From: Natrinema sp. SYSU A 869
Lineage (GTDB): Archaea; Halobacteriota; Halobacteria; Halobacteriales; Natrialbaceae
DNA length: 64,000 bases
Direction of reading: 5' to 3'
Assembly: GCF_019879105.1 (NCBI RefSeq)
Contig: NZ_CP082247.1
Coordinates: 434,001-498,000, forward strand
Part shown: piece by piece, positions 632 to 46,938 of the stretch
Numbering within the stretch: position 1 is the first letter of the stretch
Layout: each line of letters begins with the position of its first letter
Notes under the pieces: model-generated
Told to the model about the DNA's origin: nothing
Database searches by the model: none
Seen by the model: the letters and a program-made list of their open reading frames with translations, nothing else
Made by a program: the position numbers and the translations under genes

Positions 632-920
632 CTGATACAGAGCGAAAAAAGACTTGCACTGGATCGAGGCGATCGACGGGCTCGTCACGGTCGTGATCTT
701 CGTGACTGCGTTAGTCGCTGGCCTAGTCGGAGTGTTTCTCGGCGAGTGGCTGGCGTTGGTCTTGATCCCGATAGGATGACTCTTCGCGGCTTTTGACCCT
801 CATGTCGGGAGGTGGAAACATGTCTGGGTGTATGACACGGAGATCGATCAGGACGAACTGCTGTTTCGAGAGGTCTGGTCAGAATACACGGCCGACAATC
901 TCGGAAAGGCACGAATATGA
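628..920 (+). pseudogene. Small membrane protein downstream of integrase, broken
   Basis: The start ATG overlaps the integrase stop. After about eight codons the frame is lost at an A6 run (positions 645-650); adding one A gives KDLHWIEAIDGL followed by a strongly hydrophobic stretch (VVIFVTALVAGLVGVFLGEW), which is a membrane segment. A second defect is an in-frame TGA at 777-779. After it the frame continues as a soluble acidic tail to the TGA at 918-920, which overlaps the next gene. The intact ancestor would be an approximately 97-residue single- or double-pass membrane protein of unknown function. The tight coupling to the integrase on one side and to a 51-residue gene on the other suggests one operon. 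Confidence 0.7.
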
Positions 921-1072
921 ATATTCCAGAAGAGTTCGACCGGTCGGAGTGGGATAGTGTTGGCTACATCCCTCCCGATCGCCGCTCGAGCAATGAGGTC
1001 TACAACTGGTCGCAGTTCTACGACTTCTGGAAGTGGCTGAAACAGGAGGGACTATTCGATGACGGGGAATAA
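917..1072 (+). CDS. 51-residue hypothetical protein, integrase operon
   Basis: This short reading frame starts inside the stop of the upstream membrane protein (ATGA overlap) and encodes a Trp- and Tyr-rich acidic protein (NIPEEFDRSEWDSVGYIPP..., ending WKWLKQEGLFDDGE). I do not recognise a domain. The coupled start, acidic haloarchaeal composition and position directly after the integrase module support a real gene. Its role may be linked to integration or excision, such as a directionality factor, but no helix-turn-helix is visible and this is only a guess. Confidence 0.6.
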   Translation: MNIPEEFDRSEWDSVGYIPPDRRSSNEVYNWSQFYDFWKWLKQEGLFDDGE

Positions 1073-1089
1073 CGCAAGACCAGAGGCAC

Positions 1090-1212
1090 CTATTTCACAC
1101 CGACCACGCGATCGCAGTTCCTGCAACAAATCACGAGTACGTCGCCGTCTCGAGTATAGTGCTGTTCGTCTTTTGGGTCGAAGTCTTGTTCGCAGTATGG
1201 ACAAATCCCCAT
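1090..1212 (-). CDS. 40-residue zinc-ribbon protein
   Basis: The reading frame contains two CxxC pairs, ICPYCEQ near the N-terminus and CCRNCD near the C-terminus, separated by about 23 residues. This is a minimal zinc ribbon filling almost the whole protein. The start chosen is the Met directly before GICPYC; a longer frame upstream encodes low-quality sequence. Such mini zinc-finger proteins are common on haloarchaeal plasmids and may act in nucleic-acid or protein binding. It is convergent with the upstream small genes. The precise role is unknown. Confidence 0.65.
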   Translation of the reverse strand: MGICPYCEQDFDPKDEQHYTRDGDVLVICCRNCDRVVGVK

Positions 1213-1417
1213 ACGGAATACACAACATAATAGCACAAATAGGACTCCCCCAGTCAAATAGCCCGGACTACTTGAACAGAGCTGACAATAAGGACTTTTT
1301 CGAACAGATGATTGAGAATCCTGGTTACCGTACATCTCTATCGATGTGACGCACTCGACAGGGAGTTCCAACCGACAATAGATTCAGTATGTTATAATAA
1401 TTATATCTCCATAAGAA

Positions 1418-2083
1418 ATGGCCCAGTGTGATGAATCGAACTGTAGGGGAGACGAGGACTTCTCGCACACGTGCTCATACTGCGGTGGACGCTACTGTTC
1501 TGATCATCGGATGCCGGAGGCACACAGCTGTCCAGCGCTCGCGACGGCATCAACTCAAGGTCTGGACTTCCGTGGCGGGACGATCAGCGACCTTGAGGAA
1601 AGGAGAGAGGCATCGACAAGTGAGAAAAAGCAGTGCACAGAGTGTTCAAACTTTGTTCCACCTGACAAGGATCTCTGTCTGTCGTGTCGTCGTGATCCGA
1701 TTGATGATACAAGTCCTGACGTTTCGATCAAGACGGGCGACCCCGAGCCAGAGCAGTCGACCGAATCCAGTACAGGCCCAGGGTTCTTGACATCGATCAA
1801 ATTCCGCCTCGAGATGGTCGGGATCCGTGTCCGCGGTTGGATGCGGTCGGTCGTCCAGTTCGGATCGATCGGCATGTTCCTACTCGGCATATACGCGATC
1901 GTGAAAGCGTACGCAACGGTTTCGTTTGGGCCGCTGACGTTCCTCGAATTCGAGGTGCCCGCCGCATTCGGTTCGTCCAGGATGACGCTGCTGGTCGGTG
2001 GGACTGCGATTATGATCGTCGGGCTAGCGCTCTCGTTTAAGCTGATCTTCGGATCGGCGTCTCCGCAGTTTGAGTCACACTAA
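1418..2083 (+). CDS. AN1-type zinc-finger membrane protein
   Basis: The first 45 residues contain a Cys/His pattern typical of AN1 zinc fingers (CDESNC, then CSYCGGRYCSDHRMPEAHSC). A second Cys cluster follows (CTECSNFVPPDKDLCLSCRR). An acidic Ser/Thr/Glu linker leads to two hydrophobic helices at about residues 145-170 and 185-210, so the protein is probably anchored in the membrane with the zinc fingers in the cytoplasm. AN1 proteins with membrane tails are frequent in haloarchaea, often beside rhomboid or stress genes; the function is not established. The gene lies between the integrase module and an Orc1/Cdc6 pseudogene, with no obvious operon partner. Confidence 0.8.
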   Translation: MAQCDESNCRGDEDFSHTCSYCGGRYCSDHRMPEAHSCPALATASTQGLDFRGGTISDLEERREASTSEKKQCTECSNFVPPDKDLCLSCRRDPIDDTSPDVSIKTGDPEPEQSTESSTGPGFLTSIKFRLEMVGIRVRGWMRSVVQFGSIGMFLLGIYAIVKAYATVSFGPLTFLEFEVPAAFGSSRMTLLVGGTAIMIVGLALSFKLIFGSASPQFESH

Positions 2084-7936: not shown

Positions 7937-8667
7937 ATGACTCGAGGTAGTCCTCATCTCCAGTTCCTTCGTGGATTTACGAAAGACGAACTGCAGGCAA
8001 TTCCAGACCGATGTGATTGGTGTCAGGTTCGGAAAACAACTGTTTCGACGAACGAGTTGTCGAAATCCATTCGCGAATCAATCGAGAGGAACGTCTCCAA
8101 CGGGAATATCACGTACTCCGTGGCAATGGCGGATATTCGACGAGAAGTACTGATCCCCGGACCAGAGACGTTACCACAAAAAATACGCGATGCGCTGCGA
8201 GAGACGCCGGTGGCTACGTTAACGGGGAGGATACTACTGGAGACGAAGCCACAGGTTAGTATACTTCCCAATACTACGGCGCGTTGACCGCGTTCATCGT
8301 TCGGCCGTACACTGTGAAAACGGACTATGCACTGAACATTCAACATCGCCCCTCCGCAGATATTTACGTCGAATCTGATCAGGGAGACGGCGATTATCTC
8401 ATCGAAATCAAAAGTGTACTATCAGTCAGGAATACTCAGGAGATCAAGCGCCAACTCGAGCGATACCACCAAGCGGTCGAGACGGAGCTCGGTCGAACGC
8501 GAGAGCGAACATTCCTGTGCATCGTCGGTATGGACTTGGAACCAAGTACATACGGTGAATCGAGGAAATCACGTCCGGTCCCCGAGTATATGGACGTCCC
8601 ATCAACGATTTCCGAGGTGGAAGACGAACTCAAGCGAGTCGAAGTAATTTCGAATTCGTTCCTCTAG
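7937..8667 (+). pseudogene. Putative PD-(D/E)xK-type nuclease, broken
   Basis: The frame from 7937 (LQFLRGFTKDELQAIPDRC...) reads well up to KIRDALRE near 8205. The sequence then continues in the frame one base back (DAGGYVNGEDTTGDEATG), crosses a TAG at 8257-8259, and runs on as YTSQYYGALTAFIVRPY to 8667. The last part holds ADIYVESDQGDGDYLIEIKSV, which fits the D-x(n)-E/D-x-K core of restriction-like nucleases. One lost base and one stop codon therefore disable it. It follows the GHKL gene by 112 bases on the same strand and may be the nuclease arm of that system. The nuclease assignment rests on the EIK motif only. A 127-residue C-terminal product starting with TTG at 8284 could still be made. 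Confidence 0.6.
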
Positions 8668-8935
8668 ATACACGATGCCTGCATGGTCCATGAGATCGGT
8701 ATTGACCGTCTCCTTAACTGCTTTGAGCTGCTCCTGATACAGTTCCAAGGGTCGAAGGTCGATATCGACCTCGTTGGTCAAGAGTGTGTCGAGCAATCGA
8801 TCGAGCGTTCCCGTGATCGAATCCAGTTCCCGCTGAGTGTCTCTCGCTAATTCGTCGATCGTCTCGATACGACCTTCGATACGCTCGAGGCGAAATCGGA
8901 TTTCAACTCCGAACGAACGACCCGTACGAGTATTT
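8602..8935 (-). pseudogene. Truncated helical protein remnant
   Basis: On the minus strand, from about 8935 down, a continuous frame reads EIRFRLERIEGRIETIDELA, then RDTQRELDSITGTLDRLLDT, then a central part ending TDLMDHAGIVYLEERIR. This is a coherent acidic, helical, probably coiled-coil protein. There is no Met before the frame is cut off at about 8935, and its 3' end runs into the convergent nuclease gene. It is a fragment with both ends likely lost. I do not recognise the family. Confidence 0.45.
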
Positions 8936-29668: not shown

Positions 29669-30865
29669 TTAGATCGATTTGCAGGCCTTCAAGACCAGTT
29701 CCGGATCATCGACCAGTTCGTGAATTGTGTGTGCGCCCTTGCCGTGACCGCGTCCCTTTCGCGTCTGTTCAATGATCGAGAGGAATGATAGTTCGCTCAG
29801 TAACTCACGAACCCGCCGAATCCGAAGCGGATCAGAGCCCTCCTGTTCGCAGAGAACCTCGTAGGTCGAATAGATATCTGACGTTGGAATCGCCGGCTCA
29901 TCGTCTGGTGCCTGTTGAGTCTGGAATGCGAGCGCTTGTAAGAGTAGTTTCGAGTGTGGCGGCTGTTTCGAGATGAGTTCTGCCAGCCGGTTTTGCTCCT
30001 CTCGCGTGTGTGCCTGATTCACGTGCTCTTCCACCACAGTTCCCGCACCGTTCTCATCAGCGATTTCGCCAGCATAGCGGAGGATGTCGATCGCTTTGCG
30101 TGCGTCACCGTGTTCTTTTGCAGCTAACGCAGCGACTCTTGGGATTACTGCATCCTCGAGTACACCATCTTGGAAGGCGTCTTTTCGCGATTCGAGGATC
30201 GCCCGGAGTTGCTTCGCATCGTAGGGTGGGAAGACGAAATCCCGCTCGCTCAGACTGGATTTGACGCGCTCGTTGAGTTCTTCCTTGTACCGAATCTTAT
30301 TGCTGATGCCGATGATTCCGAGTGTGCTGTCCTCGAGTTTGCCAGATTCGACGGCTCGAGAAAGTTGCATCAAAATATTATCGTCGCCGATCTTGTCTAC
30401 CTCATCGAGGATAATGATACCCACATCGAATCGGCAATCGAGGATATTCCAGAACCGACGATAATACTCGCCCGTACTCAGCCCCGAAGAGGGAATCGAG
30501 ATTCCCGTTTCGGCTTCGTCGTTGAACTCACGAGCGATCGAGCGGACAGCTTGCGTTTCCGTCGCGTGCTGAAGGCAGTCAATATAGGCAACTCCAATTG
30601 AAACGTCGTTTTCCGCAGCACTCGAGCGGAGATCCTTCGTGATATACTTTGAGCAGAGAGATTTTCCCGTCCCCGTCTTCCCGTAGATCAGGACGTGATT
30701 CGGTGTGTGGCCCTGGACGGCGTCCTTGAGTGCCTGCGCGAGGCTGTTGAGTTCGTCCTTTCGACCGATAATCCGATCACCCTCGACCAGATGAGAAATC
30801 CGTAGCAAGTCCTTGTTTGCAAAGATATAGTTTTGGTTGTCGAAAAAAGACTCTGAGCCTGACAT
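29669..30865 (-). CDS. Orc1/Cdc6 replication initiator
   Basis: The 398-residue protein is intact: NTP-binding Walker A IYGKTGTGKSLC at about 60, Walker B VGIIILDEVDKIG at about 150, sensor 1 IIGISNKIRYKEEL, sensor 2/lid EHGDARKAIDILR at about 265, and a C-terminal winged-helix domain (SDIYSTYEVL ... LSIIEQTRKGRGHGK). It would bind the repeats just upstream of its own gene (30907-31354) and recruit MCM helicase. The upstream arrangement of inverted repeats around an AT-rich core is the classic haloarchaeal origin layout. It is the only complete initiator of the three Orc1-type genes in this window. Confidence 0.95.
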   Translation of the reverse strand: MSGSESFFDNQNYIFANKDLLRISHLVEGDRIIGRKDELNSLAQALKDAVQGHTPNHVLIYGKTGTGKSLCSKYITKDLRSSAAENDVSIGVAYIDCLQHATETQAVRSIAREFNDEAETGISIPSSGLSTGEYYRRFWNILDCRFDVGIIILDEVDKIGDDNILMQLSRAVESGKLEDSTLGIIGISNKIRYKEELNERVKSSLSERDFVFPPYDAKQLRAILESRKDAFQDGVLEDAVIPRVAALAAKEHGDARKAIDILRYAGEIADENGAGTVVEEHVNQAHTREEQNRLAELISKQPPHSKLLLQALAFQTQQAPDDEPAIPTSDIYSTYEVLCEQEGSDPLRIRRVRELLSELSFLSIIEQTRKGRGHGKGAHTIHELVDDPELVLKACKSI

Positions 30866-32404: not shown

Positions 32405-33149
32405 GGCAGTGTCTAGTTGAGCCAGTTTGAGAAGTGAGCAGGTCGTTGAGTGAATTGGTTAGAATGCTCGCAGACCTGCTCAGCGAGAGCTACGAGGAGG
32501 ATCTAGAAGAATCTTGGGAGAACGAGCGGACGGCGTCGCCCGTCAGGGCGTTCGCCGTCCGCCTCCATCAGACCGGCTGTTCGCTTCGAGAGACAACAAC
32601 GATTCTCGCTTAATTAGGCGTTGAACGCTCTCATGGGGCGGTTTGGAACTGGGGACATCGGCTATCTGACAGCGGACGCGACCCGCCTGAGGCGAAGCCG
32701 AAGCGGGTCGCTGTTGACGAAACCGCTGTCAAGATCAACGGAGAATGGTCTTGGTTGTATGCCGCAATAGACACCGAGTCAAAGCTGATCCTCGATGTCG
32801 CGTTGTTCGGTCGGCACGGTACCGATCAAGCGGCTGCATTTCTGCATGGACTTCGCGAGAAACACGATCTCTCTAACGCTGAGTTTCTCGTTGATCAATT
32901 CGGTTATCGGACTGCCCTTGCTCGATTAGGATTGAATGGTCGAGTGAACTACACCGACCGAAACCTCATCGAAAAGTGGTTTCATACCCTCAAAATACAA
33001 GTTGACCGTTTTCATAACTCATGGGTGGGCAGTCGGGCGAGCGCACGCGAGTGGATTGAACAGTTCGTGCATTACTACAACTGTCAGAGACCGCACCAAT
33101 CGCTCGATGGACGAACGCCAGCCGACGAGGTGCTGAACTAGACAGTGCC
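32405..33149 (+). mobile_element. IS6-like insertion sequence (ISH15-like)
   Basis: A 745-base unit is bounded by inverted ends GGCAGTGTCTAGTT (32405-32418) and AACTAGACAGTGCC (33136-33149), which match with one mismatch. It encodes one DDE transposase. The same ends are used by miniature elements at 33157-33388 and 48146-48376, so this IS probably mobilised them. A partial second copy runs off the window at 63619-64000. No clear target duplication was seen. Confidence 0.8.
32464..33141 (+). pseudogene. IS6-family transposase, interrupted by TAA
   Basis: The N-terminal 49 codons contain a helix-turn-helix region ending TTTILA, then TAA at 32611-32613. The frame continues as LGVERSHGAVWNWGH and then the catalytic DDE core: KRVAVDETAVKING (first Asp), EFLVDQFGY (second Asp), EKWFHTLKIQVDRFHN (Glu region) and YYNCQRPHQSL. 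One substitution would restore the full 225 residues. The element may be immobile unless helped in trans. Confidence 0.8.
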
Positions 33150-33388: not shown

Positions 33389-33594
33389 CATCGTCCCGTC
33401 TATCATATCGGACGGGCTAACGAGCATCTCCGGCTTCTCCGCCATATTATCTTCCATTCTTTCGAAGGTAGATATCACTGTTTATAAAGCCTTTCTGCCA
33501 CTGTCGGGACGATGGCGGAAATCCAGCGAATACACAGTTCAAAGTGATTGTCTTATCAACTAATTTTTAGTACTCTGGTGCTTTGCCTCTCTCA

Positions 33595-34839
33595 ATGAAC
33601 TATTCAAACGGCGAGTATACAGTGGACGATGCGAGAGGCGATTTGAATGTTCTTCGAGAAGTTCCGAACAAGGTCGTGAGCGCGATCGAAAACGCTGCTG
33701 ACGAGGACGTTCTCGACTATCTGATTAGAGAACAACGGCTCGACACCCTCCACGACGGGAGACGAGGGATCGGCCAGATCCGTCGAGCAGTCCTCAAGTC
33801 CGAGGTAGCGTCCGAAGATCTCAAACGGCTCGTCATCACGAGGAACGACAATACGCCGGATACCATGCTCGTTCCTGACGAAGTCTACCGAAACGCGAAA
33901 GTAGCACTGAAGACCGGAAAGCCGGTCGTCCTGTACGGACCGACCGGGACGGGGAAGACAACGTTCGCGAAACAACTGGCGCTCGAGCATTCAATCGGCT
34001 ATTCGCTCAACACGGCCACCCCCTCGTGGACAGCGAAAGATATCATCGGTGGAATCGGACCGAGTTTGAGCGGGCGTCGACTCGACTACGAGACCGAACT
34101 GGGTTGTGTCTCGGAGGCGGTGAAACGATCGAAGGACTTCGACATCGACTACACCGTTATTCTCGACGAGATTACCCGCGCCGATATCTCCAAGATCTTC
34201 GGTCCACTCTACACGGCAATCGAGAACCCGCAGCAGGAACTCATCGAGACTGATGATGGCGAACCGATCACTCTCAACGAGAACGTGAATATCATCTGCA
34301 CGATGAACATGTCGGATCGGACGGTGAACGAACTCGATAACGCCATCACACGACGATTCGCTATGATTGAGGTCGACCAGTACAGCGACGATAGTCGACG
34401 GGAACTCTTCGAGAAGTTCATCGACGACCACATCGATTCCGTGGACTCGTCCAGCTCACCGCAGATAGACGAAGCACGTCTTCTGGAGCTGTTTGAGAGA
34501 GATTATTGCGGGATCAACGGTGGAACAAATGAGACGTCGCAAGGACCGATCATGCGGTTCGGTCCGATGCACTACGAGGATATCGCGAAGTTCGTCGGAG
34601 AATCGACGGACGATCCGGAACTGTACCTTGATGACCCAGGTAAAGCGGTCGGGCAAGCGTTTCGGACGTACATCGTTCCACGGCTCCTAAACTCTGCGGC
34701 GTTCCCGCAGATAGAGCGGATCGAAAACCACTATCGCGCCCTCAACGACGAGTTTGAGGAGTTCGATCTAACCCCTGCGGCCGATCTCGCAAAGCGTGAG
34801 CTCGAGGCAGAGCAGCGTCAGTTGGGTTCCTATGAATAG
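33595..34839 (+). CDS. McrB-like AAA+ restriction GTPase/ATPase
   Basis: The start at the Met of NYSNGEYTVD is preferred to an upstream TTG. The 414-residue protein has Walker A YGPTGTGKTTFAK at about 115, Walker B YTVILDEITRADISK at about 185 and ICTMNMSDRTVNEL at about 235, the place of the McrB NTADRS-type signature. An R finger-like DNAITRRFAMIE follows. McrB-family AAA+ proteins form hexamers that translocate or remodel DNA when the partner McrC is bound. Here the stop overlaps the next start, which encodes an McrC-like nuclease, giving a complete two-gene system. The N-terminal 90 residues would be the DNA-recognition domain and resemble no known fold to my eye. Confidence 0.85.
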   Translation: MNYSNGEYTVDDARGDLNVLREVPNKVVSAIENAADEDVLDYLIREQRLDTLHDGRRGIGQIRRAVLKSEVASEDLKRLVITRNDNTPDTMLVPDEVYRNAKVALKTGKPVVLYGPTGTGKTTFAKQLALEHSIGYSLNTATPSWTAKDIIGGIGPSLSGRRLDYETELGCVSEAVKRSKDFDIDYTVILDEITRADISKIFGPLYTAIENPQQELIETDDGEPITLNENVNIICTMNMSDRTVNELDNAITRRFAMIEVDQYSDDSRRELFEKFIDDHIDSVDSSSSPQIDEARLLELFERDYCGINGGTNETSQGPIMRFGPMHYEDIAKFVGESTDDPELYLDDPGKAVGQAFRTYIVPRLLNSAAFPQIERIENHYRALNDEFEEFDLTPAADLAKRELEAEQRQLGSYE

Positions 34840-36592
34840 TGGCGACGGTCATTATATTTACGGACCCGAAACGTTCGACGTTCCGGAGCGCGGCGAGATC
34901 GTTATCGAAGACTGTCCGGAGTCGATCGTCGATCAACTTGAGCGAGCCTCGTTCGACCGCGTCACCCCGAACGTCTTCAAGAAAACCCAGGAGGCGTTCG
35001 ATGAGGATACCGAGTATACGGTGCTCACAGCTACCGTCGACGGTTCGACGCTTCGAGTAGAGGCACGTGACGTCGTCGGAATCGTCAGCCTCACGCCCAC
35101 GGCGAAGGTCCAAATCAATCCAAAGATCGACTGGGAACCGGTCTTCGATATGGTGCTTGCGGTCTACGATCAGAACCGCTCGCTCGAGTATCGCGGCGTT
35201 CCCTTACAGAATTTTCTGGGTGACGACATCGAACTCTCGGACATCTTCCTGATTCTTGCTCTCAATTACTTGGAGGGAATCGACGTCATTCACCGGAACG
35301 GATTCATCCGCGATCTCGAAACTCGGCGGGCGGATCTCGACGATGTTCGTGGGGAGATCGACGTCAAGCAAACCCTTGTAAACCACGCAGAAGGACGTAC
35401 ACAGCACCATTGTGTCTTGAAAGAAGTCGAATACGACAATCCGGCAAACTCGTTGCTTCATTATGCCGGAACAGTGTTACTCCGACTCTTTCGGGATCAC
35501 TCTGACGAGTACGATTATCCCGGGTATAATCACATCTTCTCACAGGTACACCGAGAACTACGCAAACTCGAGGAACTCGGAGTGTCCAGCTCCCCCCGGC
35601 GGATCGGTGAGTATCGATCGTTCTCACTATACGACCTCCCGAAGGAACGTCACTACTACCGGAAAGCGTTGGATGTCTCGAAGGCGATCGCCACCTCTTC
35701 TCTCAGTCGGCAGCTCGAACGGGGCCAGCGTGAGTTGACGATCGACTACGTCATCAACATGGAGTCGCTGTTCGAGCAGTATTCGCAAGTCGTCCTCGAA
35801 CAGCAACTCGAGAAGATCAAGACGTACGATCACCGGGATGATCTCGTCGACGTGACCGCTGTGGGGTCGCCGTCGGTAAAGCCATTCGCAGACGAGGCGA
35901 ACATCTACCATCAGCCCGATCACGCGGTCCAGCGGGGTACGGAGACGCTCGCCATCTTGGACTCGAAGTATTACGCCGACGGTCACGACCCAGTCAAAGA
36001 GTCGCCGTCGCGATCGCGTCTGTTCAGTTATGCGTATCTACTTCAGGCCGAGTATCTTGGGTTCCTGTGTCCGTTGCTCGAACCTAAGCGCCGGACGGTT
36101 ACGCAGACGGATGCAGAACTGCAGATCGTTTCCCCCGAAGGCGAGCACTTCACGCTCGAGTCGTACGAGGCTGCCATGTACGAGTACCTCTACACGGTGC
36201 TCGTCACGGAGGCCCCGGAACTCGAGCCGTTCCACGCGGTTGCCGAACATGACCTCTGTCTCGACGGCGTCAGCGAGACAGATCTCGATCGGGCCCGAGA
36301 GATGAGCAGTCCGTTCACGTTCAAAGACACGAGGGAATTCTCGCTGCGGGTTATCAAAGCAGCGGCCGATCAGCACTCGTGGAACGTCCGCAATCGGAAC
36401 GATTTAGAGCAGGACGGCGAGTGGACGCGCGAGCAGATCGAGACGCGGTGCAACGATCGATACAAACACGCGACGACCTGTATTCCGGTTTTCCGTCGGG
36501 ACGAGGGGGAGGAGTGGATTGATCTCTACTTCCTCAATAACGGGACCGGAGAAATAGAGAAGGAAAAACCGCTCAAACTGCTCGAGCGCTGA
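34832..36592 (+). CDS. McrC-like nuclease subunit
   Basis: The start ATG (NSGDGHYIYG) overlaps the mcrB stop. The 586-residue protein has the McrC layout: an N-terminal beta domain (VVGIVSLTPTAKVQINPKI at about 85), a helical middle, and a PD-(D/E)xK nuclease core with ETLAILDSKYYADG at about 378 (D-x-K). A C-terminal extension of about 150 residues follows. In McrBC systems this subunit stimulates McrB NTP hydrolysis and cuts DNA containing modified cytosine. Specificity here is unknown. Confidence 0.85.
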   Translation: MNSGDGHYIYGPETFDVPERGEIVIEDCPESIVDQLERASFDRVTPNVFKKTQEAFDEDTEYTVLTATVDGSTLRVEARDVVGIVSLTPTAKVQINPKIDWEPVFDMVLAVYDQNRSLEYRGVPLQNFLGDDIELSDIFLILALNYLEGIDVIHRNGFIRDLETRRADLDDVRGEIDVKQTLVNHAEGRTQHHCVLKEVEYDNPANSLLHYAGTVLLRLFRDHSDEYDYPGYNHIFSQVHRELRKLEELGVSSSPRRIGEYRSFSLYDLPKERHYYRKALDVSKAIATSSLSRQLERGQRELTIDYVINMESLFEQYSQVVLEQQLEKIKTYDHRDDLVDVTAVGSPSVKPFADEANIYHQPDHAVQRGTETLAILDSKYYADGHDPVKESPSRSRLFSYAYLLQAEYLGFLCPLLEPKRRTVTQTDAELQIVSPEGEHFTLESYEAAMYEYLYTVLVTEAPELEPFHAVAEHDLCLDGVSETDLDRAREMSSPFTFKDTREFSLRVIKAAADQHSWNVRNRNDLEQDGEWTREQIETRCNDRYKHATTCIPVFRRDEGEEWIDLYFLNNGTGEIEKEKPLKLLER

Positions 36593-36793: not shown

Positions 36794-37555
36794 ATGGGGG
36801 CCATCACGACTATCGATGACGAGACTCGCCGTCAGATCACGGAACATTATCGGACATACACTGAGACGTATCAGCAGATCTGGTCACAGCTCGATACGAT
36901 TCACGATCGGCTCAATACTACCGATATTGAGGGAAAATCCGCCTACCTCCAGTTATCATATATAAACGCCGTCATCAGTATTCAGACACCGGTTGACAGG
37001 CACGAAGAATCACTCCGGAAACTCATGAATGACCGTAATCTCGAGACTGCACTCGAATCCGTGAACTACCGGCGAAAGAAACTGGATAGTATTCAGCAAA
37101 GCCTGGACCAGAATACCGTGTGGAGGAATCTGGCATCAATGCTGGAAAATAAAGACGTGAGTTCTGCACACGAAACCGCACTAGATCGTCTTCGACTCGT
37201 CGGAACGGTCAAGACTCCGTTTCTGTTTGCAACACTCGGGTATACGGAGAAAATGTGTATCGACGGTAACGAAGCCAATCTTATGGGGATGGACCGGACG
37301 CCCCAGACGGACGATATCGATCGCTACGAACAACTTTGTCAAGAGATCTGCAGTGAATTCCCCGCGCTGAGCGAGGAATTAGATCCGTTTCACCTCCATT
37401 GGGTTATTTTCGATTGGCAACGACATCCGAACACCAATAAAGAACCACAAGATGAGCAACAACAAGCCGACCCAATCACGCACCATGATGCGTGGTTTGA
37501 CGCTGCACTGCGTGACACAGCTGCGATTCAACGACGAATGGAATCAATTGTATAG
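36794..37555 (+). CDS. Possible HhH-GPD/OGG-fold DNA glycosylase-like protein
   Basis: The 253-residue protein is largely helical. The region LRLVGTVKTPFLFATLGYTE, then MCIDGNEANLMGMD, resembles the helix and loop following the helix-hairpin-helix of OGG-type glycosylases (G-x-VKTPF, C-x-D-x-N). ELDPFHLHWVIFDWQRH near 215 recalls the C-terminal helix of that fold. No confident catalytic Asp was pinned. The gene lies between McrBC and the methylase-ATPase set, all in a defence island, so a glycosylase acting on modified bases is an attractive idea. It is convergent with the small gene at 37608. The family call is from memory of sequence style and needs a profile search. Confidence 0.5.
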   Translation: MGAITTIDDETRRQITEHYRTYTETYQQIWSQLDTIHDRLNTTDIEGKSAYLQLSYINAVISIQTPVDRHEESLRKLMNDRNLETALESVNYRRKKLDSIQQSLDQNTVWRNLASMLENKDVSSAHETALDRLRLVGTVKTPFLFATLGYTEKMCIDGNEANLMGMDRTPQTDDIDRYEQLCQEICSEFPALSEELDPFHLHWVIFDWQRHPNTNKEPQDEQQQADPITHHDAWFDAALRDTAAIQRRMESIV

Positions 37556-37607: not shown

Positions 37608-37991
37608 TTAGAACGGTGCAACGAGCCAATCACCCTTCCCCTTCCGATCGAGTTGGGGGCCGAAGATATCCTGTAGTGGATACAGTTCATCGTTGTATCG
37701 CAGGTCGTAGGTCTTCCCCTTTCGATGGAACGAGCCCTCGACGACGAACTGGACTGTGGGACTCTGGTATTCAAGATCGTTCGCCCGCCGATCCATCGAT
37801 CGCCCGAGTTCTGCGGCACCCTCGCCCTCTTCGAAGGCGGCACCAAGCCCGACTACGCTGACCGTCTCCGGGACATCGTCGTTTTCGAGTCGCTGGACGA
37901 ACTCCTCGATCGGCATCTGGTGCTCGAACGTCTCGTATTCACCCGCGACGACGACGTTGTACCGTCCCGGAATTTGACCTGGCCCTGCCAT
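37608..37991 (-). CDS. 127-residue partner of the methylase operon
   Basis: The start is the Met of AGPGQIPGRY, two bases after the methylase stop. The protein is mostly beta (YNVVVAGEYETFEHQM, SPTVQFVVEGSFHRKGKTYD) and ends GDWLVAPF. It is the last gene of the minus-strand set DUF499 ATPase - methylase - this gene. In related bacterial systems a small DUF3780 protein takes this place; I cannot confirm homology. A longer frame upstream is an Arg-rich shadow of the methylase. Confidence 0.6.
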   Translation of the reverse strand: MAGPGQIPGRYNVVVAGEYETFEHQMPIEEFVQRLENDDVPETVSVVGLGAAFEEGEGAAELGRSMDRRANDLEYQSPTVQFVVEGSFHRKGKTYDLRYNDELYPLQDIFGPQLDRKGKGDWLVAPF

Positions 37992-37993
37992 GG

Positions 37994-40653
37994 TTAGTAA
38001 CTCGTGATGTCTCGATCGCCGAGGACGCGCGTGTAGGTGTCGTCGCCGGTGACGTCGGCGAGTCGGCCGGCGAGTTCGCGCAGGTCGTCGTCGACATCCC
38101 ACTTGTCGACGTAGTTCTGGACCGCCTGTCCTTTCTCGTAGCGATACCGAAGGAACTGGAGTTTGTCGAGGTTCGAGAGGTGGTCGTCGGAGTCGCCATT
38201 GACGCGCTCCTGGATGTACGCCTGGCGCTTCTCGTTGTCCCAGGTGCCGAGTTCGAAGCCGTCGTCCTGGTTGTAGAGGCGCATCTCCGTGAGCTCCTCG
38301 GGCGTGGCGTTGGTCCCGCGGCAAAGCTTGTTGACGTCGTCATAGGAGACGTTCGACGTGTCCAGCAGGTCGATGAACACGTCCTCGACGCCGATGTCGC
38401 TGGCCTCCTGGATGATGCCGTAGATCTCCTGGACGACCTCCTTTGCGGACATGATCTCGCCGTCGCGCTGGACCTTCCCGTGGTGTTTGGAGTACTCGCG
38501 GAAACATGCGCCCATCTCCATCACGCCGATGTCTCCGCGGGAGAGGTCACGGTTCTCTTCAAGTTGCTTGCGGGTGCGTCGGGCCGTGCGGTAGATGTCG
38601 CGGCGAAGGGAGTTCCATGATGTGGGTTCGGTGTCGTCGATGGGGCGGGCGACGACCACGATGTCAAACGAGACTGCTTCTCCCGTGATGAATTTGTTAA
38701 TGTCTGCTGTAAGCGGATATGTCGCCGTCACTTCGAAGCCGACGTTACAGAGCGACTCAAGGAGTTCACCCCACGATTCAGAGTCGCTGTGGTGGTAGGT
38801 GAACGTGAGCGATCCATCGTCTTTGAGTGCACGCTTGATGACTGAGAAAGCCTGACTGAGTTCTGATTCGAAATCCTTGGCAGTTTTGTCAAGGAATGGA
38901 TTCGTGACGATGGATTCAGCGCGTGGGGTTTTTTCTTTATCAAACCCGGGATACTCGTCTTGAAGAAGAATCTTTTGCCAGACGTAGAAGTAATCCGCCA
39001 CCTCCGAATACATAATGTTATCGTAATATGGAGGATCAGTGATGACGGCGTCAAACTCATCTTCGTAGTTGAGGGTCCGCATGTCGCCCTGATTGATAAT
39101 GAAATCTCCTCCCGCTGAGTGCGCAAATGGGGATGTTTTCTTGTTTTCACCACCGGTCACAAATCGTTCAGTAGGACTGTTTGCATATTCGACACCACTC
39201 AACACCATGTCCCACATGGCGGTGAAAGTACCACTCCCAAACTCGGCACCCCAGATATTATTCTCGATGGGATATGTTGGAGGATCAAATGAATTCGTCC
39301 GGAAAAGATCACCTATCTTGTTGTGTGACGTATTATACGAAACCATCATATTGGAATATCTTAGAGATTCAGAGACGGCCATAAGAAGGAACTCCCGGTG
39401 ATTTTTCGAACTGACTTCGTCAACCGATTTCAGTAATTTCGATAGACACAGAAGCTGACGAGTGGAAAACATATCTGTCCACTCCTTGTAACCATGATCA
39501 AACACCGGGTTTCGCTCGGAGGTCATGTGGCCGGGTGGAATTTCCTCGTTAGGGACGTATTCGTGGAGTTCTTTACTCTCCTCCCACTCACGCTCGGCCT
39601 CTCCGAAGAGCTCTTTATCGAACTCTTTGGCTTCCTTGTACCCTTTGTGTGCGGATTTCGGCTCGCCGGCGTCGTCGCAGTGTTCGCAGTAGTATTCTAA
39701 TGCGTAAAGCCGCAAATCGTATCCACCCTGCTCCTGAATCGCGTCCGTAATTCTGTACTTCTGTCCACAATCAGGGCAATTATACTTCCCACCCCGCGAA
39801 ACGTTCCCTTCCTTTGGAACGAAGCCATGTCCACAGTCGTTACAGATACTTTCTGACTGCCAATCGTCTACTACCGTAACTGCACCACAATCCGGGCAGA
39901 GAACGTTGTACCCTGGGTCGTCGGCATACCGTTCTTTCGCCACACGGTAATCCTTGAAAAGCGGGACAGTATGCCCACAAGAGACGCAGTCCAGTTCCTT
40001 CACCCAAAGTTGTACATCACGTCCGCCTGATGATCCCCGTTCGGACAGGTCGTCTTGTAGTACTGCGTGATCTCGTCAGCGACGTCATCCTTCACCTGCT
40101 CGAAGGCTTCCTCAAGATCTTCGACGTCGGTCTGGCCGGCTTCAAGTTCCTTCTTCGTGACGAACCACGCGACGGGGTTCAGGTCGTTCCCGACGACCTC
40201 CGCGCCAAAACGGGAGGCCTCAACGAGCGATGTACCGCCGCCCATGAACGGGTCAAGGATCTTCTTGTCTTCGATGCGGACATCCTTCGGGTAGAGTTCC
40301 CAGAGGCTCTCCGGGTCAGTCATATCCACGCGTTCGAGCAGTGAGGTGACATCAAGGTCGGACTCACCGTCGGCGTCGTCGCCGTAGGCTGCGAGCGTTT
40401 CGCCCTCGTGACCCGGTTCGTAGACGGAGACCTTCTCCGGGTCGTCGAGTAGCGTGTACAGAGAGATCGTACGGAAAACACAACCCAGACGGCGAGCCCA
40501 CCACTTGTGCATCGTATAGATTGGGCGATAGTGCATTTTTGCTCGCCCTTCCTTCTCCGCGATCTCGTTCACCCGCTCGATCGGGAACCCCCGTTCGATC
40601 GGCAGTTCCGTTCGGTCCGATTCGTCATCTGACTGTTGGATTTCCTTAGACAT
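37994..40653 (-). pseudogene. DUF1156-type DNA methyltransferase, one frameshift
   Basis: The N-terminal part contains ERVNEIAEKEGRAK and IYTMHKWWARRLGCVFRT (DUF1156) and the SAM-binding motif ILDPFMGGGTSLVEA. It stops at DVMYNFG*, but the next frame continues VKELDCVSCGHTVPLF. One added T in the T3 run (plus-strand AAA at 40006-40008) gives YNFWVKELDC and an 886-residue protein. The middle holds four CxxC zinc knuckles (CVSCG, CPDCG, CNDCG, CPDCG). The catalytic motif is AVITDPPYYDNIMYSE (DPPY, amino-methyltransferase class). Such methylases occur with DUF499 ATPases and helicases in anti-phage islands and may mark self DNA. Translation as two coupled pieces (ATGA overlap) cannot be excluded. 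Confidence 0.85.
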
Positions 40654-40655
40654 AA

Positions 40656-43600
40656 CTATAACTCGAAACTAATCTCGATTTTCAGGCTCGACGCCGCGTC
40701 CGGCATCCGCTCGAACAGATCCTGAACCTTAGTGAACTCTTGCCCCGATCGCAGCGTCAGGTTCACCTGTGTACGCTCGACTTCGGCAGTTCCCTGCAGT
40801 GTTCCAGGCACGCCTTCCTTATCCGGAAGCATGAACGTCACGTCGCCGTAATCGACAGTCCCTCCCTGTTTCTTATCGCGCCACTTGCGACGCAGTTCCG
40901 CGACGTCGTCGCCAGTGAACTCGAACCGCCATCCGCCTCCTCCGCTGTCGGGAATACGGAACGGATAACCCGGCACCCAGTCGGCTGCATCGTCCGACCC
41001 CGTTGGGCCGACGACGTACGCGGGATCATCCTCACGACCCAGGTTTTCCAGGAGGAACGTCTCCACCATCGCCTCAGTGACGGTGCTGTCGAACCGATCG
41101 CAGATTTTGTTCACCGTGAACTGACTCCCAGACTCGCGGTCCGCAATGTAGTCGAGGATCTTCGTCCTGATCCGATCGGTCACCGTCGGCACGAGCTTGA
41201 CAGTCGCCGGATCGCGATCGCCGAGCGATTCGAGGTACCGTCCGCCGGCCTCCAAGACGTACTCGTCGACCAGGAAGTCGTTCACCGCCTCGCGGGCAGC
41301 GTTTTCGGTCTCGTCTGGTGGGAGGAAGACCGTCTCGTCGGCGCGGATTTCGCCGATGATCGTCTCGAGGGTGGCGTATCCGTCCTGATCGATCTTCGCT
41401 TCAATCTGCTCGGCGAGCTGTGTCGTACCCACTTCCGTCGCACTGCTAATGTCTCGCAGCGTCGCATCCGACTGTGGCTTGTCGAGGATCTCGTTCCCGC
41501 GGATGACGATGTACTGGTCCTCGTGACCCAATCGACCGATAGCCCGCATCACTACGTCGTGACTGTCCCCATCGATCCACACCTCACCGTCCTCGAGCAA
41601 TTCGAGTTCGAAGTCGCCAATATCAATCGCAGTGGTACCGCTTCCGAAGCGCTGTCGCAGTTCTTGCTCGACGTCGTCGACGCCCCACGTCTTCACCGCG
41701 TCCGTTCTGACGAGTACCGTGTCGAGTGAACTCCCCGAGAGGTCGTCCCGGAACCCACCGGAGTCCCGAGCCAGCACCGGCTTGTCCTGCACTGCCTCAA
41801 CTGTTGCGTTGAGAACGTCGTTTGCGCTGCCCGGGATCGGGAGTTGTGGCGTTCGCAGGAACTCCTCGTAGACGCTCTCGATCGCAATCTCACCTTTTCG
41901 ATCGAGCAGATCCTCGACGATCGTCCAGACATGACTCCGGAGGTCGAAGGGGTCGGCGGCCGCAGCGTTAGCGATATTTGTCGAGTTGAGTTCATCGTCG
42001 CCGCCGACGAACACGTCGAGATCCATCGGTGCGGCCAGGTCGAACTCATTTAGGAGATCGTTCCCGTCAATGACCTCTCCGTAGAGGAGCTGCAGTTCCT
42101 CGCGAAGCTCGTTCTCTTCTTGGGCCTTCATTTCGCGGATCGACTCCCGAATTTCGTCATCGAGAGAGTCATCCGCGAGCACTTGCCGTGATCCTTCGAT
42201 ATACCGCGCCTTGTCGATGTACCGTGTTCCCGACTCAATCGCCTTCTCGCCGGCTGGCTGGACGAATACGAGCGTGTTTCGCCACTCTCGCCCTCGCCCG
42301 TCGTTCGTGATAACGCGTTTTATCTCGTCTTGGATCCACTGACTGTCCTTGACGACGACCGTGATATCCCGATCGTCGGGAACGTTCTGAATGTCATCGG
42401 TGCGGAAGCCAACGGGATGCGCACTCGATCCGAAAATCTCTCCCACAATGTCAGCGATTTCGGCCTTGGCCGATCGTTCGGAGACGTCGACAGCGGCATT
42501 CCTGATGAGGGCGTTCGGGTTCTGTCGATCGCGGATGGCGTACTTTCCGTTGAGTTTGTGCAAGTGCCACGCGACCCCGTGCAGTCGTTCGAGGTTGAGC
42601 ACGACGTCCGAAATTAGATTTCCTGTTTCGTACGTCCCCATAATAATCTCCGAGGTGTCCGCCCCCTCGCCCTCGCTGGGCTTGAGCGAATAGAGAAGGA
42701 TCGTATTTAGGATACGACGGCCGTGAGGGACATCGTCCTCGTCAATGCGGTTTTTGATATCGCCTGTTGCCGCATTGAGCCGTTCATAGTTGATTTTCGC
42801 GAGCTCATCCTCGAACTCGATGGCGTCGATATCGCCATGTGTGATGAGATCGGTCTTGTCTCGCATCTCGAGGAGAACCTTCGAGAAGAGGTAGATCATC
42901 CCACGTGTATTTTGGTTGCCGTCGTCGGCATAGTACCGAGTCTCGAGGGCATCTAGAAGGACAGGATGGAAGGGATAGAGATCGTGCATATCCGACAGCA
43001 GGCCATCGGGGACATCGACGTGACCTTCGGCGTCGTTGTAGGCGTCGTAGTATCCGTTGACGATCTCGCGTGCAGCGGACTCGTCGACGGAATCGATCAG
43101 GCGGTGTCGAAGGACCTCGCGTTTGTCCACCTGATTGTTCATATTGACCTCGACAGCTTGCTCGCGATTCAGGATCTCGTGAACCTCGGATTCCTCGCGA
43201 AGCACGGAGACGATCGTGTAGAGTTCGAGATCGGAGAGTGCAGTCGATTCCAGCAGTGCCTGGAGGAAGCCCTTATTTGCGCTTTTGCGGTCACCGCTGA
43301 GCGTGTCGAACCAGTCCTCGAGTTCGTCGACGATGAAGGCGACCGTACTGTCTCCTACAGCTTCCCTGATCGTCTTCATGTCCGGATAGCCGCCCGACTC
43401 GTACGTATCGGACTCGTACTCAACCGCCTCGAAGAATGGCTCCCAGAGATGCTCGTACTGCTCGTTTTGCATCGAAACCGTGACCGGGACGGCATCTTCT
43501 GGGAGGGAATCTGCAACCCCCTCAATTTCGCCATCGGCCCACGCGCTAGCAGTGTGGGGATTGGCAAACAGTGGTAGAGAGCGACCATTTGGTGAGACTT

Positions 43601-43864
43601 TCCACTCCCATACGGTCCGTAGAGAATGTGGGTGCCACGGGGATCCTCTCCGGTCAAGGAATCGCGAAGGATCGTGAGAGCCTCTCGAAGTCCACGAGTC
43701 ATCAAGGTACGCTCGAAAAAGAGCTCGGCGTCGGATTCGAACTCGCTCTCGTCATCGACATTGTAGAGCTTTACTTGTCCGTCGATTTGCCCTTCTTCCC
43801 GGAGTTCACGGCTCAGCGTAACCGTATCGGTAATAGTCCGAGACAAAGGATCAGTCTGAGACAT
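40656..43864 (-). pseudogene. DUF499-like ATPase (defence-associated), one frameshift
   Basis: Walker A is GTHILYGPYGSGKSHQM at residues 78-94 from the start at SQTDPLSRTI. The frame is lost after ALYHC at the T3 run (plus-strand AAA at 43566-43568); one more T gives CFANPHTASAWADGE and joins the 938-residue remainder. The repaired protein has about 1069 residues. Its large middle is helical with a motif VAFIVDELEDWFD (Walker B-like). The C-terminus is VNLTLRSGQEFTKV. DUF499 ATPases, like PglY of BREX, are large P-loop proteins of anti-phage systems. The gene precedes the methylase by 2 bases, so they form one operon; the SNF2 helicase is divergent. Confidence 0.85.
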
Positions 43865-44010: not shown

Positions 44011-45761
44011 ATGGATGATTACGACCTCGTCGACGTCGAGGTCACTCACGAGGATACGGATCCACTTCTCGAACGAATACAGGAGGAAAACCGAGGAGAA
44101 CACTTCCATACCGTACAGGCGCTCCGTCTTAAAGCAGGGCAGCCGGACTCCGAACTCCGGTCGCTCACAAAACTCGATGGAGACTCTGTAAAACTTCTCG
44201 AACATCAGGTGGATGCTGCCTATCGAGCGCTGTTCGAGATGGACGGAAAAGCGCTCCTGGCTGATGAAGTCGGGCTCGGGAAGACCATCGAGGTCGGAAT
44301 GATACTCAAAGAGATGCACTACCGGCAGACTGACGACTCGGTACTTATTCTAACACCAGCGCAGCTGGCGAAGCAATGGCAGGGAGAACTGCTGGAGAAA
44401 TTTGGCCTCGACTTCGTTTGCAACTACGATGACGAGTTCGAAGGGTTCGACGCGCACGATTACATCATTGCGAGTATTGATACCGCCAAAAGCGATCGGC
44501 ACCGCGAAACCGTCCTTCGGAAAGACTGGAACGTTCTGGTCCTCGATGAGGCCCATTACATCAAAAACGAAGAAACAGATCGGTACGACCTGATACAAAA
44601 TCTCACCTACGACTACGCCTTCTTCCTCACTGCAACTCCCATTCAAAACGAACTAACCGATCTCTACAATATCATCTCTCTGCTTCGACCCGGACTGTTC
44701 GGTAGTAGAGATACCTTTCATCAGTACTTTGTGAACAAGAGTCAAGAGACGCTTGTCAACCAGAATGAACTGCAGAACCGTCTCAATGAGGTGATGATCA
44801 GAAACAAACGGGTCGACACGGATGTCGATTTCACGGAGCGAAAGATCGATACCCGTACCTTCGAGCTGACACACGAGGAACGACAGCTCTACGAAGCGGT
44901 TTCGGACTATGTGCGTGGAGCGTATAGCGAGGATCAGGGGCAAAAACTGGTACTGATGCTCCTTCAAAAGGAGGTGGTCAGCAGTCCCGCAGCGCTCAAG
45001 GGGACGATCGAGAAGCGACTACACGAGCAATCGGAACTCACGCACGCCGATGAACTGGAGTCGATTCTCGATCTGGTCGATGACATTGAAACCGTCACCA
45101 AACAGGATCGGTTGCTTGATATCGTCGAAGAGGCGCGTGAACACGTCGAAATGGGCCGCGTCATCGTGTTCACCCAGTTCCGAGCAACGCAGCGAGAGAT
45201 TCTGAACCGGCTAACAGCTGAGGGCTACACCGTCCATGCGTTCCATGGTGGACATTCGAGCCAAGAAAAAGAAGACATTGTCGAGAACTTCGAAGAAGAA
45301 GGGGAGTGTTAGTATCGACGGATGCAATGAACGAAGGCCGCAACCTCCAGTTTTGCAATATCATGGTCAACTACGACCTGCCCTGGAACCCGATGAAAGT
45401 AGAACAACGGATTGGACGCATCCATCGGATCGGCCAGAAACGGGAAATCTACGTCTTCAATATGGCGCTTGAGGATACAATTGAAGAGTACGTTCTCGAT
45501 AGGCTTTATCATAAAATTGATTTGTTCCAACAAACTGTCGGCGAGCTGAGTGCAATTCTCACGCGGCTCGAGGAATCCAGCACGAGCTTCGAAGACGAGA
45601 TCTTCGAACGTTTAGTCAAGGCCGATTTGGAGATTGACCTGGAGAACGATTTCGATGCGATGGCCGTCGACCTTCAGGAACAGCGAGAACTCGCTGACAA
45701 GCTCGAGGAATTTAACAACGGCGTATTTGAGGGATTCGATCTGGGGGCGAACGATGACTGA
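44011..45761 (+). pseudogene. SNF2-family helicase, one frameshift
   Basis: All N-terminal SNF2 motifs are intact: motif I LLADEVGLGKTIEVGMI (about 85), Ia LILTPAQLAKQW, motif II VLDEAHYIKNE (about 180), motif III FFLTATPIQN (about 207). The C-terminal lobe starts VIVFTQFRATQREIL. The frame breaks at GEEEGEC* near 45304-45306; one added G restores GEVLVSTDAMNEGRNLQF (motif V) and RIGRIHRIGQKREIYVF (motif VI). The repaired length is about 583 residues. It lacks the long accessory domains of chromatin remodellers and resembles prokaryotic RapA-type or DISARM-type helicases. With the divergent methylase and ATPase it forms a helicase-methylase-ATPase set. Confidence 0.85.
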
Positions 45762-46938
45762 TGCAGCCCTCGAAGTTACGCAATCCGAAGCCGAGCAGTT
45801 CACACAACAGTATCTCGAATCGCTTGGCTGTTCCATCGACATGCGAGGAAAGCAGTGGCTCGTAACTGTCCCCGAGGAAGCTGACACCATAGTGGAGCCT
45901 GGCACGTTAACACTCGTCCCGTCAGCCGATGAAGAAGATTCGGACGAAGACAAGCAATTCCTCCACCCCGAGAGCGCGTTCTTTCAGGAGCTGATCGAGG
46001 AGGCTGCCGATCGTGCACCGATCGGTTCGATGACGCTGACAGCAGACGATGTCGAGATCCGAGTTCCTGACTGGGCAACGGAAAGCAGTGCTGAGGTAGT
46101 CGACACCTCGTTTACACCCTACTACGATCGGACAGCGCTAACTATCCTCTTTCATATAAGCATCGAAACCGTTAGCGAATACCAAACGCAACTCCTTCGC
46201 GCGATTTCGCTCGATGTTCGATCGAACGAACCGCTTCCGGGGATAACGAGGGCCTTTCTCGATCAAACGAAGAAGGGATCTGATCGGTTTCACGAGTGGA
46301 ACGGTGAGCTATCGGCCGACCGAATACGCAATCTTCTCAACTCAGCTGGTGGGAAGATTCGAGAACAGATCCGCCTTACTATCGATGAAATTCACGATGA
46401 CGCATCCCGTGCTGCTGACGCTGAACTCGAAGAGTATCGGCGGTTACAGGAGCAACGTATCGCTGAACTCGAAGAAAAGATCGAGTCGCTAACGGACACT
46501 ATCGACGAATTGAGTGCTACGTTGCAGCAGACGGGTGACGAAGCCGAACGGATGGAAGCCCTTCGGCAGCGGAAGGAACTTAAACAGGAACGTACCGAGC
46601 TCCAGACGGAATTGTCGGAGTTAAACCGTCAGCGTGAGACCGGATTTCCCGAAAAGCAGCGGGAAATTCGTGATCGACACGCTCTAAAAGTTCGTCTTAA
46701 ACCGGTTTCGATAACTCTTGTTAAATACGAAACAGGAGACCTCGTACTCTCACTGGCTACTGATACGGAAGAAGGGTCTATTACCGTCGGATACGGAAGC
46801 GGTGTTGGAGAGACAGAATCAGTAACCTGCGAATTCTGTGACCGGGAGTTAACCGCGAAGAATCCGGTTCAGTTCACCGGAAATTATCTTGGCTGTTCGA
46901 AGTGTAAATCCACGTTCGGCAACAGCTCGTCGTCTTAA
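45754..46938 (+). CDS. Coiled-coil protein with zinc ribbon, partner of SNF2 helicase
   Basis: The start at the Met of TDAALEVTQS overlaps the helicase end by 8 bases. Of 394 residues the first 210 are globular (YLESLGCSIDMRGKQWLVTV, then a domain with LLRAISLDVRSNEPLPG). A coiled coil follows (LEEYRRLQEQRIAELEEKIE ... LQTELSELNRQ). The C-terminus is a zinc ribbon CEFCDRELTAKN ... CSKCKSTFG. It is probably the substrate or DNA-binding partner of the helicase. I do not recognise the N-terminal domain. Confidence 0.75.
   Translation: MTDAALEVTQSEAEQFTQQYLESLGCSIDMRGKQWLVTVPEEADTIVEPGTLTLVPSADEEDSDEDKQFLHPESAFFQELIEEAADRAPIGSMTLTADDVEIRVPDWATESSAEVVDTSFTPYYDRTALTILFHISIETVSEYQTQLLRAISLDVRSNEPLPGITRAFLDQTKKGSDRFHEWNGELSADRIRNLLNSAGGKIREQIRLTIDEIHDDASRAADAELEEYRRLQEQRIAELEEKIESLTDTIDELSATLQQTGDEAERMEALRQRKELKQERTELQTELSELNRQRETGFPEKQREIRDRHALKVRLKPVSITLVKYETGDLVLSLATDTEEGSITVGYGSGVGETESVTCEFCDRELTAKNPVQFTGNYLGCSKCKSTFGNSSSS

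Follow-up and report, generated by a model that had tools for sequence, protein, structure and literature searches.

A rare, unnamed family of Ogg2-like helix-hairpin-helix proteins associated with defence islands of haloarchaea and with tailed haloviruses

Introduction

Brig1 and Brig3 are glycosylases from defence islands that protect by excising glucosylated or plain 5hmC from DNA; both are members or descendants of the uracil-DNA-glycosylase superfamily, and relatives of Brig1 are often located near BREX, as described in excerpts of the respective reports (PMC11078745, PMC13160076). Restriction by base excision is also the mode of action of the PabI-type restriction glycosylases, which possess a HALFPIPE fold, act in a recognition sequence and, according to the available text, always have a methyltransferase gene adjacent to them (PMC10273834). 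Among the open-licence papers listed by our searches, we found no report of an antiviral glycosylase of the HhH-GPD or Ogg type.

Here, we describe a gene encoded in the window, the 64,000-nucleotide stretch of Natrinema sp. SYSU A 869 that was analyzed as a whole. It represents a genuine, rare and unnamed HhH-GPD family that is tied to haloarchaeal defence islands and to tailed haloviruses. We put the chance at slightly better than even, at about 0.55, that its product is a DNA glycosylase of the helix-hairpin-helix (HhH) superfamily, descended from the Ogg2 branch or allied to it, and that this enzyme has been recruited by haloarchaeal defence islands and some haloviruses and targets modified viral purines. 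With Brig1, Brig2 and Brig3 such an enzyme would have in common the location in defence islands and the proposed generation of abasic sites in modified viral DNA, and with the PabI-type enzymes the restriction by base excision, whereas it differs from both in its HhH-GPD fold. If this reading is true, a second, unrelated glycosylase fold in defence would show that immunity by base excision has originated at least twice, including in archaea.

Results and discussion

A reading frame without a known family lies between McrBC and a methylase

The glycosylase-like open reading frame occupies positions 36794-37555 of the plus strand, starts with ATG and encodes a protein of 253 amino acids. The three motifs that the original prediction had named in this reading frame are all present, namely G137-T-V-K-T-P-F143, C155-I-D-G-N159 and F199-HLHWVIFDW208, the latter (residues 199-208, positions 37388-37417, plus strand) with F199, W203, F206 and D207 conserved in the alignment of the family (A1). 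Searched on its own, the 253-aa protein was assigned to no known family in Pfam, PADLOC, PHROGs or NCBIfam and gave matches at chance level only: the best Pfam match was PriC with an E-value of 0.0063, below the cut-off, PADLOC and PHROGs returned zero matches and NCBIfam a single one far below its cut-off. Likewise, a phmmer search of the protein against the PDB gave no match.

The gene had been placed between a restriction system for modified DNA and a methylase, and this position is borne out by the neighbouring genes. An McrB-McrC pair (33583-36592) ends 201 bases before its start and consists of an McrB-like AAA ATPase (33583-34839, plus strand; Pfam AAA_5, 5.6e-15) and an McrC-like component (34832-36592, plus strand; Pfam McrBC PF10117, 2.1e-16). 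The latter comprises 586 aa when read from an internal start, the listed reading frame beginning with GTG at 34796, and has a 586-aa match in Natronococcus pandeyae. On the other side, the gene runs convergently towards a minus-strand cluster formed by a small conserved ORF of 127 aa (37608-37991), a DUF1156-type, HmaB-like DNA methylase (37994-40653) and an HmaC-like DUF499 ATPase (40656-43864), followed on the plus strand by an SNF2 helicase resembling HmaA and DrmD (44011-45761). The 127-aa ORF has no family and no PADLOC match, is 77% identical in N. pandeyae (locus L019) and is adjacent to the methylase in both genomes. The PADLOC models HmaB, HmaC and HmaA match the cluster, with other helicase or methylase models scoring equally well or better for some of the genes. 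In the window, a frameshift disrupts each of the genes for methylase, ATPase and helicase, whereas N. pandeyae has intact homologues of 889, 1068 and 583 aa, respectively; the three frameshifts may reflect either decay or assembly error. The helicase is followed by a 434-aa gene (45634-46938, plus strand) without a confident family, whose homologue in N. pandeyae gave sub-threshold Pfam matches only. Just upstream of the island, an orc1/cdc6 initiator gene (29669-30865) and a piece of an IS6-type transposase (32755-33141) are found on this 891-kb contig.

Homologues are rare and include two tailed haloviruses

Homologues of the protein were found by tblastn in N. pandeyae, which harbors two glycosylase copies about 6.5 kb apart, in another genome of the host's taxonomic family (56% identity) and in two viruses; hence, the gene is more than a chance ORF. 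In the phage records, 4 of 50,697 entries matched. They represent two viruses with two records apiece, namely Halogranum tailed virus 1 (HGTV-1) with gp294 (35% identity, E 2e-33) and, with gp118 (about 26-28% identity, E 1e-11), Haloarcula tailed virus 2 (HATV-2). Both are tailed haloviruses, they belong to different families and their copies are 33% identical to each other. The two proteins are annotated as 'endonuclease III', the name of the sister family EndoIII; they are direct homologues of the 253-aa protein that keep its conserved lysine and aspartate, and differ in being viral, shorter and devoid of most of the C-terminal extension. Scans of viral contigs with single sequences revealed nothing new, and a scan with the family profile returned the same two viruses only. 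Among the protein models of the BFVD, UPI001E74C6D0 (210 aa, the same length as the HATV-2 protein) and M1NWK4 were matched. M1NWK4, the model of a viral protein of 215 aa (24% identity, E 7.7e-8, TM 0.87 by target), resembles a further family member and was left out of the family count.

In cellular genomes the gene is rare, with a match in 4 of the 125 genomes of the host's family. A class-wide search gave 4 of 391 genomes at an E-value of 0.01, and three after removal of the match in genome G361, which scored 17.3 bits and lies within a different ORF of 593 aa. The matches in genomes G180 and G129 were taken for canonical endonuclease III and dropped as well; behind the family members, the best-scoring genes that the family queries retrieved from haloarchaeal genomes were those of ordinary endonuclease III. 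In Natribaculum longum, a plasmid carries a degenerate copy that is interrupted by stops and has a residue other than aspartate at the Asp position. A gene fragment is present in Natronococcus sp. AD-5 (NZ_CP132295.1), at coordinates equal to those in contig 2 of genome G298. As for the two copies of N. pandeyae (locus L005), the one adjacent to McrBC (7963-8760) is frameshifted near its 5' end and aligns only from residue 21, and the second one (709-1485, minus strand) is complete.

The glycosylase of the window shares 63% identity with its orthologue in N. pandeyae and shows a dN/dS of about 0.14, at a dS near saturation, which indicates that the gene is under purifying selection and which, together with the homologues, rules out a chance ORF. 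The corresponding identities of the neighbours amount to 87-93% for McrB, McrC, the helicase and the larger piece of the ATPase, to 80% for the small ATPase piece and to 88% and 70% for the pieces of the methylase. Thus, the glycosylase has been changing faster than most of its neighbours, yet it is constrained. Its faster change is compatible with an arms race, as a matter of fit rather than of proof.

Since viruses carry the gene too, it may serve them. It might thus be a virus-derived gene for viral DNA metabolism or for an attack on the DNA of the host or of rivals, with the cellular copies having been captured and now drifting in islands, which would be in line with the occurrence in two tailed haloviruses of different families and with two of the cellular copies being relics. 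However, the copy in the window keeps its low dN/dS, the window and N. pandeyae have the gene order with McrBC and methylase in common, and no viral structural gene was seen among the flanking family matches and ORFs, a minority of these ORFs having been searched. We consider a purely viral origin and purpose of this kind unlikely.

The predicted fold is closest to Ogg2

An AlphaFold2 model computed from an alignment of six family members reached a pLDDT of 85.1 and a pTM of 0.85 and is all helical. Structure prediction and comparison had been named beforehand as the way to check the suspected glycosylase fold, and the model indeed contains a helix-hairpin-helix at residues 122-146 (37157-37231, plus strand), which DSSP resolves into helices 122-132 and 137-146 with a short hairpin between them and which reappears in a separate model of residues 1-151. 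When the full model was compared to known structures with VIA, the Ogg2 entries ranked highest, with Z-scores of 18.2 for Tm1821 (3n0u; rmsd 2.7 over 196 residues), 17.7 for 3knt, 17.3 for 3fhf and 16.1 for 3fhg and 185-196 residues aligned; of the 655 chains aligned, 43 reached a Z of at least 8. HhH glycosylases (Ogg, EndoIII, MutY, Mag or ROS1 kinds) fill the top 42 places of the 50-entry listing. Other families scored lower, i.e. EndoIII-3 with 11.2, OGG1 with 9.8 and AGOG with 9.0. Hence, the original guess of an OGG-type glycosylase stands, at the level of the model, as far as the HhH glycosylase fold is concerned, whereas OGG1 and AGOG as nearest relatives give way to Ogg2; for AGOG, the 253-aa protein also lacks a match to PF09171. 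Membership in the Brig family was rejected because the all-helical HhH model does not have the uracil-DNA-glycosylase fold described in the available part of the Brig1 report (PMC11078745).

Profile and sequence comparisons point in the same direction. Foldseek against the PDB placed Ogg2 entries at the top with weak E-values of 0.019-0.089, the best of them having a probability of 1.00, and the profile of the six members (A1) retrieved Ogg-type and Ogg2 chains from the PDB at E-values of 0.0039-0.069. In hhalign, the family matched 16 canonical archaeal Ogg2 proteins with an E-value of 2.6e-5 and a probability of 75%. The HGTV-1 homologue matched Pfam Ogg-HhH (PF22175) at 1.7e-5 (24.9 bits, cut-off 27) and Pfam HhH-GPD at 4e-4 (21.1 bits, cut-off 26.2), so that the curated cut-offs of these two models, which are profile thresholds and not structural features, were reached neither by this protein nor by the 253-aa protein with its zero matches. 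The support from sequence for a relationship to Ogg2 thus appears real but modest. Since the structural, profile and hhalign lines agree, we regard the assignment of the 253-aa protein to the Ogg2 side of the HhH-GPD superfamily, as judged from model and alignments, as well supported. With the Ogg2 proteins (MjaOgg, 3fhf and 3knt; SsoOgg, 3fhg; Tm1821, 3n0u; PF22175) it has in common the predicted fold over the whole domain, an ungapped alignment of the HhH and the catalytic aspartate. The identity amounts to only 10-14%, and in contrast to Ogg2 the cellular copies of the family carry a C-terminal extension and the family is found in defence islands and viruses.

Base-modifying transferases such as a phage 5-PmdU glycinyltransferase may be built on the HhH-GPD fold; the open-licence papers that our search listed contained nothing on this point. 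The phage enzyme (8z2n) is among the structural matches with a Z of 5.6, and the family occurs in viruses, so that a transferase built on a glycosylase-like fold, which decorates DNA without excising bases, was considered as well. Its Z-score, however, is far below the 18.2 for Ogg2 and in the range that the tool terms a 'common arrangement', and the annotated viral stretches contain no conserved kinase or hydroxymethylase partner beside the gene, which makes this function extremely improbable.

The active site departs from that of Ogg2

The original prediction had proposed to look for a catalytic Lys/Asp pair. Of this pair, the aspartate is recognizable: D157 (37262-37264, plus strand) is invariant in all six rows of A1 and is aligned with the catalytic Asp of Ogg2 in every alignment, including A3 with its 11 Ogg2 rows, in which it is invariant too. 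The lysine, in contrast, is displaced. Where canonical Ogg2 proteins read G-x-G-Y-K-E-A, the family has G-T-V-K-T-P-F, G-P-A-K-A-P-F or H-T-K-A-A-F, and in an ungapped register common to HMMER, MAFFT and hhalign the position of the canonical catalytic Lys is taken by V139 in the 253-aa protein and by alanine or threonine in the viruses. K140 (37211-37213, plus strand), which is invariant in 6/6 rows of A1 and, by eye, also kept in the Natribaculum relic, lies one residue further on, opposite the residue after the catalytic Lys, an invariant Glu in Ogg2. The model of residues 1-151 served solely to check this register at the end point of its structural alignment. There, residue 151 pairs with residue 141 in the two MjaOgg entries and in Tm1821; K129, the catalytic Lys of MjaOgg, would then lie opposite residue 139, given no intervening gap, which fits the register of the sequence alignments. 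Furthermore, the C-terminal Lys that is invariant in 16/16 canonical Ogg2 proteins is absent from all six family members.

According to excerpts of a published study, the C-terminal Lys of Ogg2 distinguishes 8-oxoG from G and is needed for 8-oxoG removal (PMC3397491). The same excerpts state that an hOGG1 mutant in which Lys249 and Cys253 are switched still processes 8-oxoG, and hold the Asp to be catalytic (PMC3397491). By analogy to this mutant, and given the role ascribed to the Asp there, activity of the 253-aa protein without the canonical Lys seems plausible. As two defining features of Ogg2, the canonical Lys and the C-terminal Lys, fail, we did not file the protein as an Ogg2 8-oxoG glycosylase. 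Judged from alignment and model, it is a relative with the Ogg2 fold and a changed active site, and its substrate can for that reason not be read from the Ogg2 family.

All four cellular contexts adjoin defence systems

The setting of the gene in the window had been called suggestive, and the case for a defence context is now stronger than at first noted, because all four independent genomic contexts of cellular copies adjoin defence systems. The first one is found in the same order in the window and in N. pandeyae and comprises McrB, McrC, glycosylase, 127-aa ORF, methylase, DUF499 ATPase and helicase. In genome G213, the gene directly follows BrxC, PglX, PglZ and BrxHII of a BREX system and a 138-aa gene, and a GmrSD-type nuclease adjoins it. 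The gene fragment in G298 lies about 3 kb from type I restriction-modification genes, and the Natribaculum relic is located directly beside DruA of a type I Druantia system, with SspF/G/H-like genes and DruE nearby. As a control, 20 random 12-kb loci were drawn from G213 (10), G298 (5) and G000 (5), two of the latter (C1:438486-450486 and C1:454711-466711) being situated inside this same 64-kb window. Two of their 110 proteins of at least 250 aa matched PADLOC at an E-value of 1e-30, the models concerned being those of LmuB and Cas12f. The comparison of 4/4 family contexts with at most 2/20 random loci yields a Fisher p of 0.0014, with a small control that was evaluated at a single E-value threshold and family loci that were judged by their whole neighbourhoods and not by exactly that threshold. 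A protein of 138-163 aa without a known family is encoded near the glycosylase in two genomes (G213, L016 18819-19235; N. pandeyae, L019 3719-4210) with 51% identity and is a possible partner gene; the 138-aa gene of G213 has no match in the window.

The copies in G298 and Natribaculum are broken, a third copy carries a frameshift at the 5' end, and frameshifts also affect the Hma-like genes of the window; the island in the window may hence be decaying.

Nucleases for modified DNA adjoin the gene in two of the contexts. Together with the replacement of the canonical Lys, this would suit a catalytically weak or dead reader that binds and flips a modified base and thereby guides McrBC, GmrSD or BREX to the DNA. 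We judge this distinctly improbable, since the catalytic Asp is invariant in six rows, including those of two viruses without such a nuclease annotated beside the gene, and the gene is neither fused to nor always paired with one nuclease. The methylases of the Hma-like and BREX systems, which adjoin the gene along with McrBC or GmrSD, could also point to self-protection, in which the enzyme clears the host's DNA of base modifications that are misplaced or foreign and so spares the host from the neighbouring modification-dependent nucleases. Such a task is very unlikely given the relic beside Druantia, the presence of the gene in viruses and the cost of abasic sites for the host.

A possible mechanism of base excision in defence

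Coming back to a glycosylase that acts on modified viral purines, we infer catalysis, the purine target and an antiviral role of the 253-aa protein from the features described above. The HhH would grip the DNA backbone and a base would be flipped into the pocket, where D157 would drive cleavage of its glycosidic bond. The enzyme would probably be mainly monofunctional, as the alignments place a Val at the position of the Schiff-base Lys and K140 is displaced by one residue. The resulting abasic sites could block replication or be cut by AP enzymes of the host or by the neighbouring nuclease system. Since the Ogg2 feature that recognizes 8-oxoG is gone, the target is likely to be a modified purine in invading DNA other than 8-oxoguanine.

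The glycosidic bonds of 7-deazapurines resist hydrolysis, which counts against 7-deazaguanine as a target. It is nevertheless a natural candidate, because haloviruses carry such purine modifications: as reported in excerpts of the respective papers, dPreQ1 takes the place of about 30% of the guanines in halovirus HVTV-1 (PMC6884629) and all Druskaviridae encode a preQ0/G+ pathway (PMC8651126). Neither HGTV-1 nor HATV-2 is named as a maker of 7-deazaguanine in the available portions of these two papers (PMC6884629, PMC8651126). A bolder and, in our view, doubtful version is that of an Ogg2-derived haloarchaeal 'restriction glycosylase' that removes hypermodified guanine, e.g. dPreQ1, from viral DNA beside McrBC, GmrSD and BREX. 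Were it true, this enzyme would, within the literature searched, be the first of the HhH-GPD type to act in antiviral defence. Without the C-terminal Lys its pocket would be open on the side of purine position 7, the displaced Lys would be the mark of a new catalytic arrangement, and the carrier viruses would use the gene against rivals or their host. The changed active site and an existing halovirus collection, which includes a virus with 7-deazaguanine DNA, make this question directly testable.

Other base-excision genes of the host and its relatives

The host genome contains five other HhH-GPD genes, so that the gene at 36794-37555 is not its sole base-excision gene. Neither canonical Ogg2 (Pfam Ogg-HhH) nor AGOG (PF09171) was matched in this genome. 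Across the phylum, Pfam Ogg-HhH matches 68 of 196 genomes, just one of them from the same order and with 19.5 bits below the cut-off. The missing canonical Ogg2 might leave a vacancy, which, along with the Ogg2 fold and the Asp, would be consistent with a conventional repair enzyme that excises 8-oxoguanine or some other oxidised purine and whose gene happens to lie in a defence island. Such a repair role is quite unlikely, however: the C-terminal Lys that is conserved in 16/16 Ogg2 proteins and, in the excerpted study, needed for 8-oxoG removal (PMC3397491) is absent, within the host's family the gene is limited to 4/125 genomes, the host has five other HhH-GPD genes, and every context is one of defence. 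An unusual glycosylase fusion was seen in an archaeal protein of 554 aa (L054, 1081-2745), in which an AGOG glycosylase domain is joined to DUF7664 and DUF6884.
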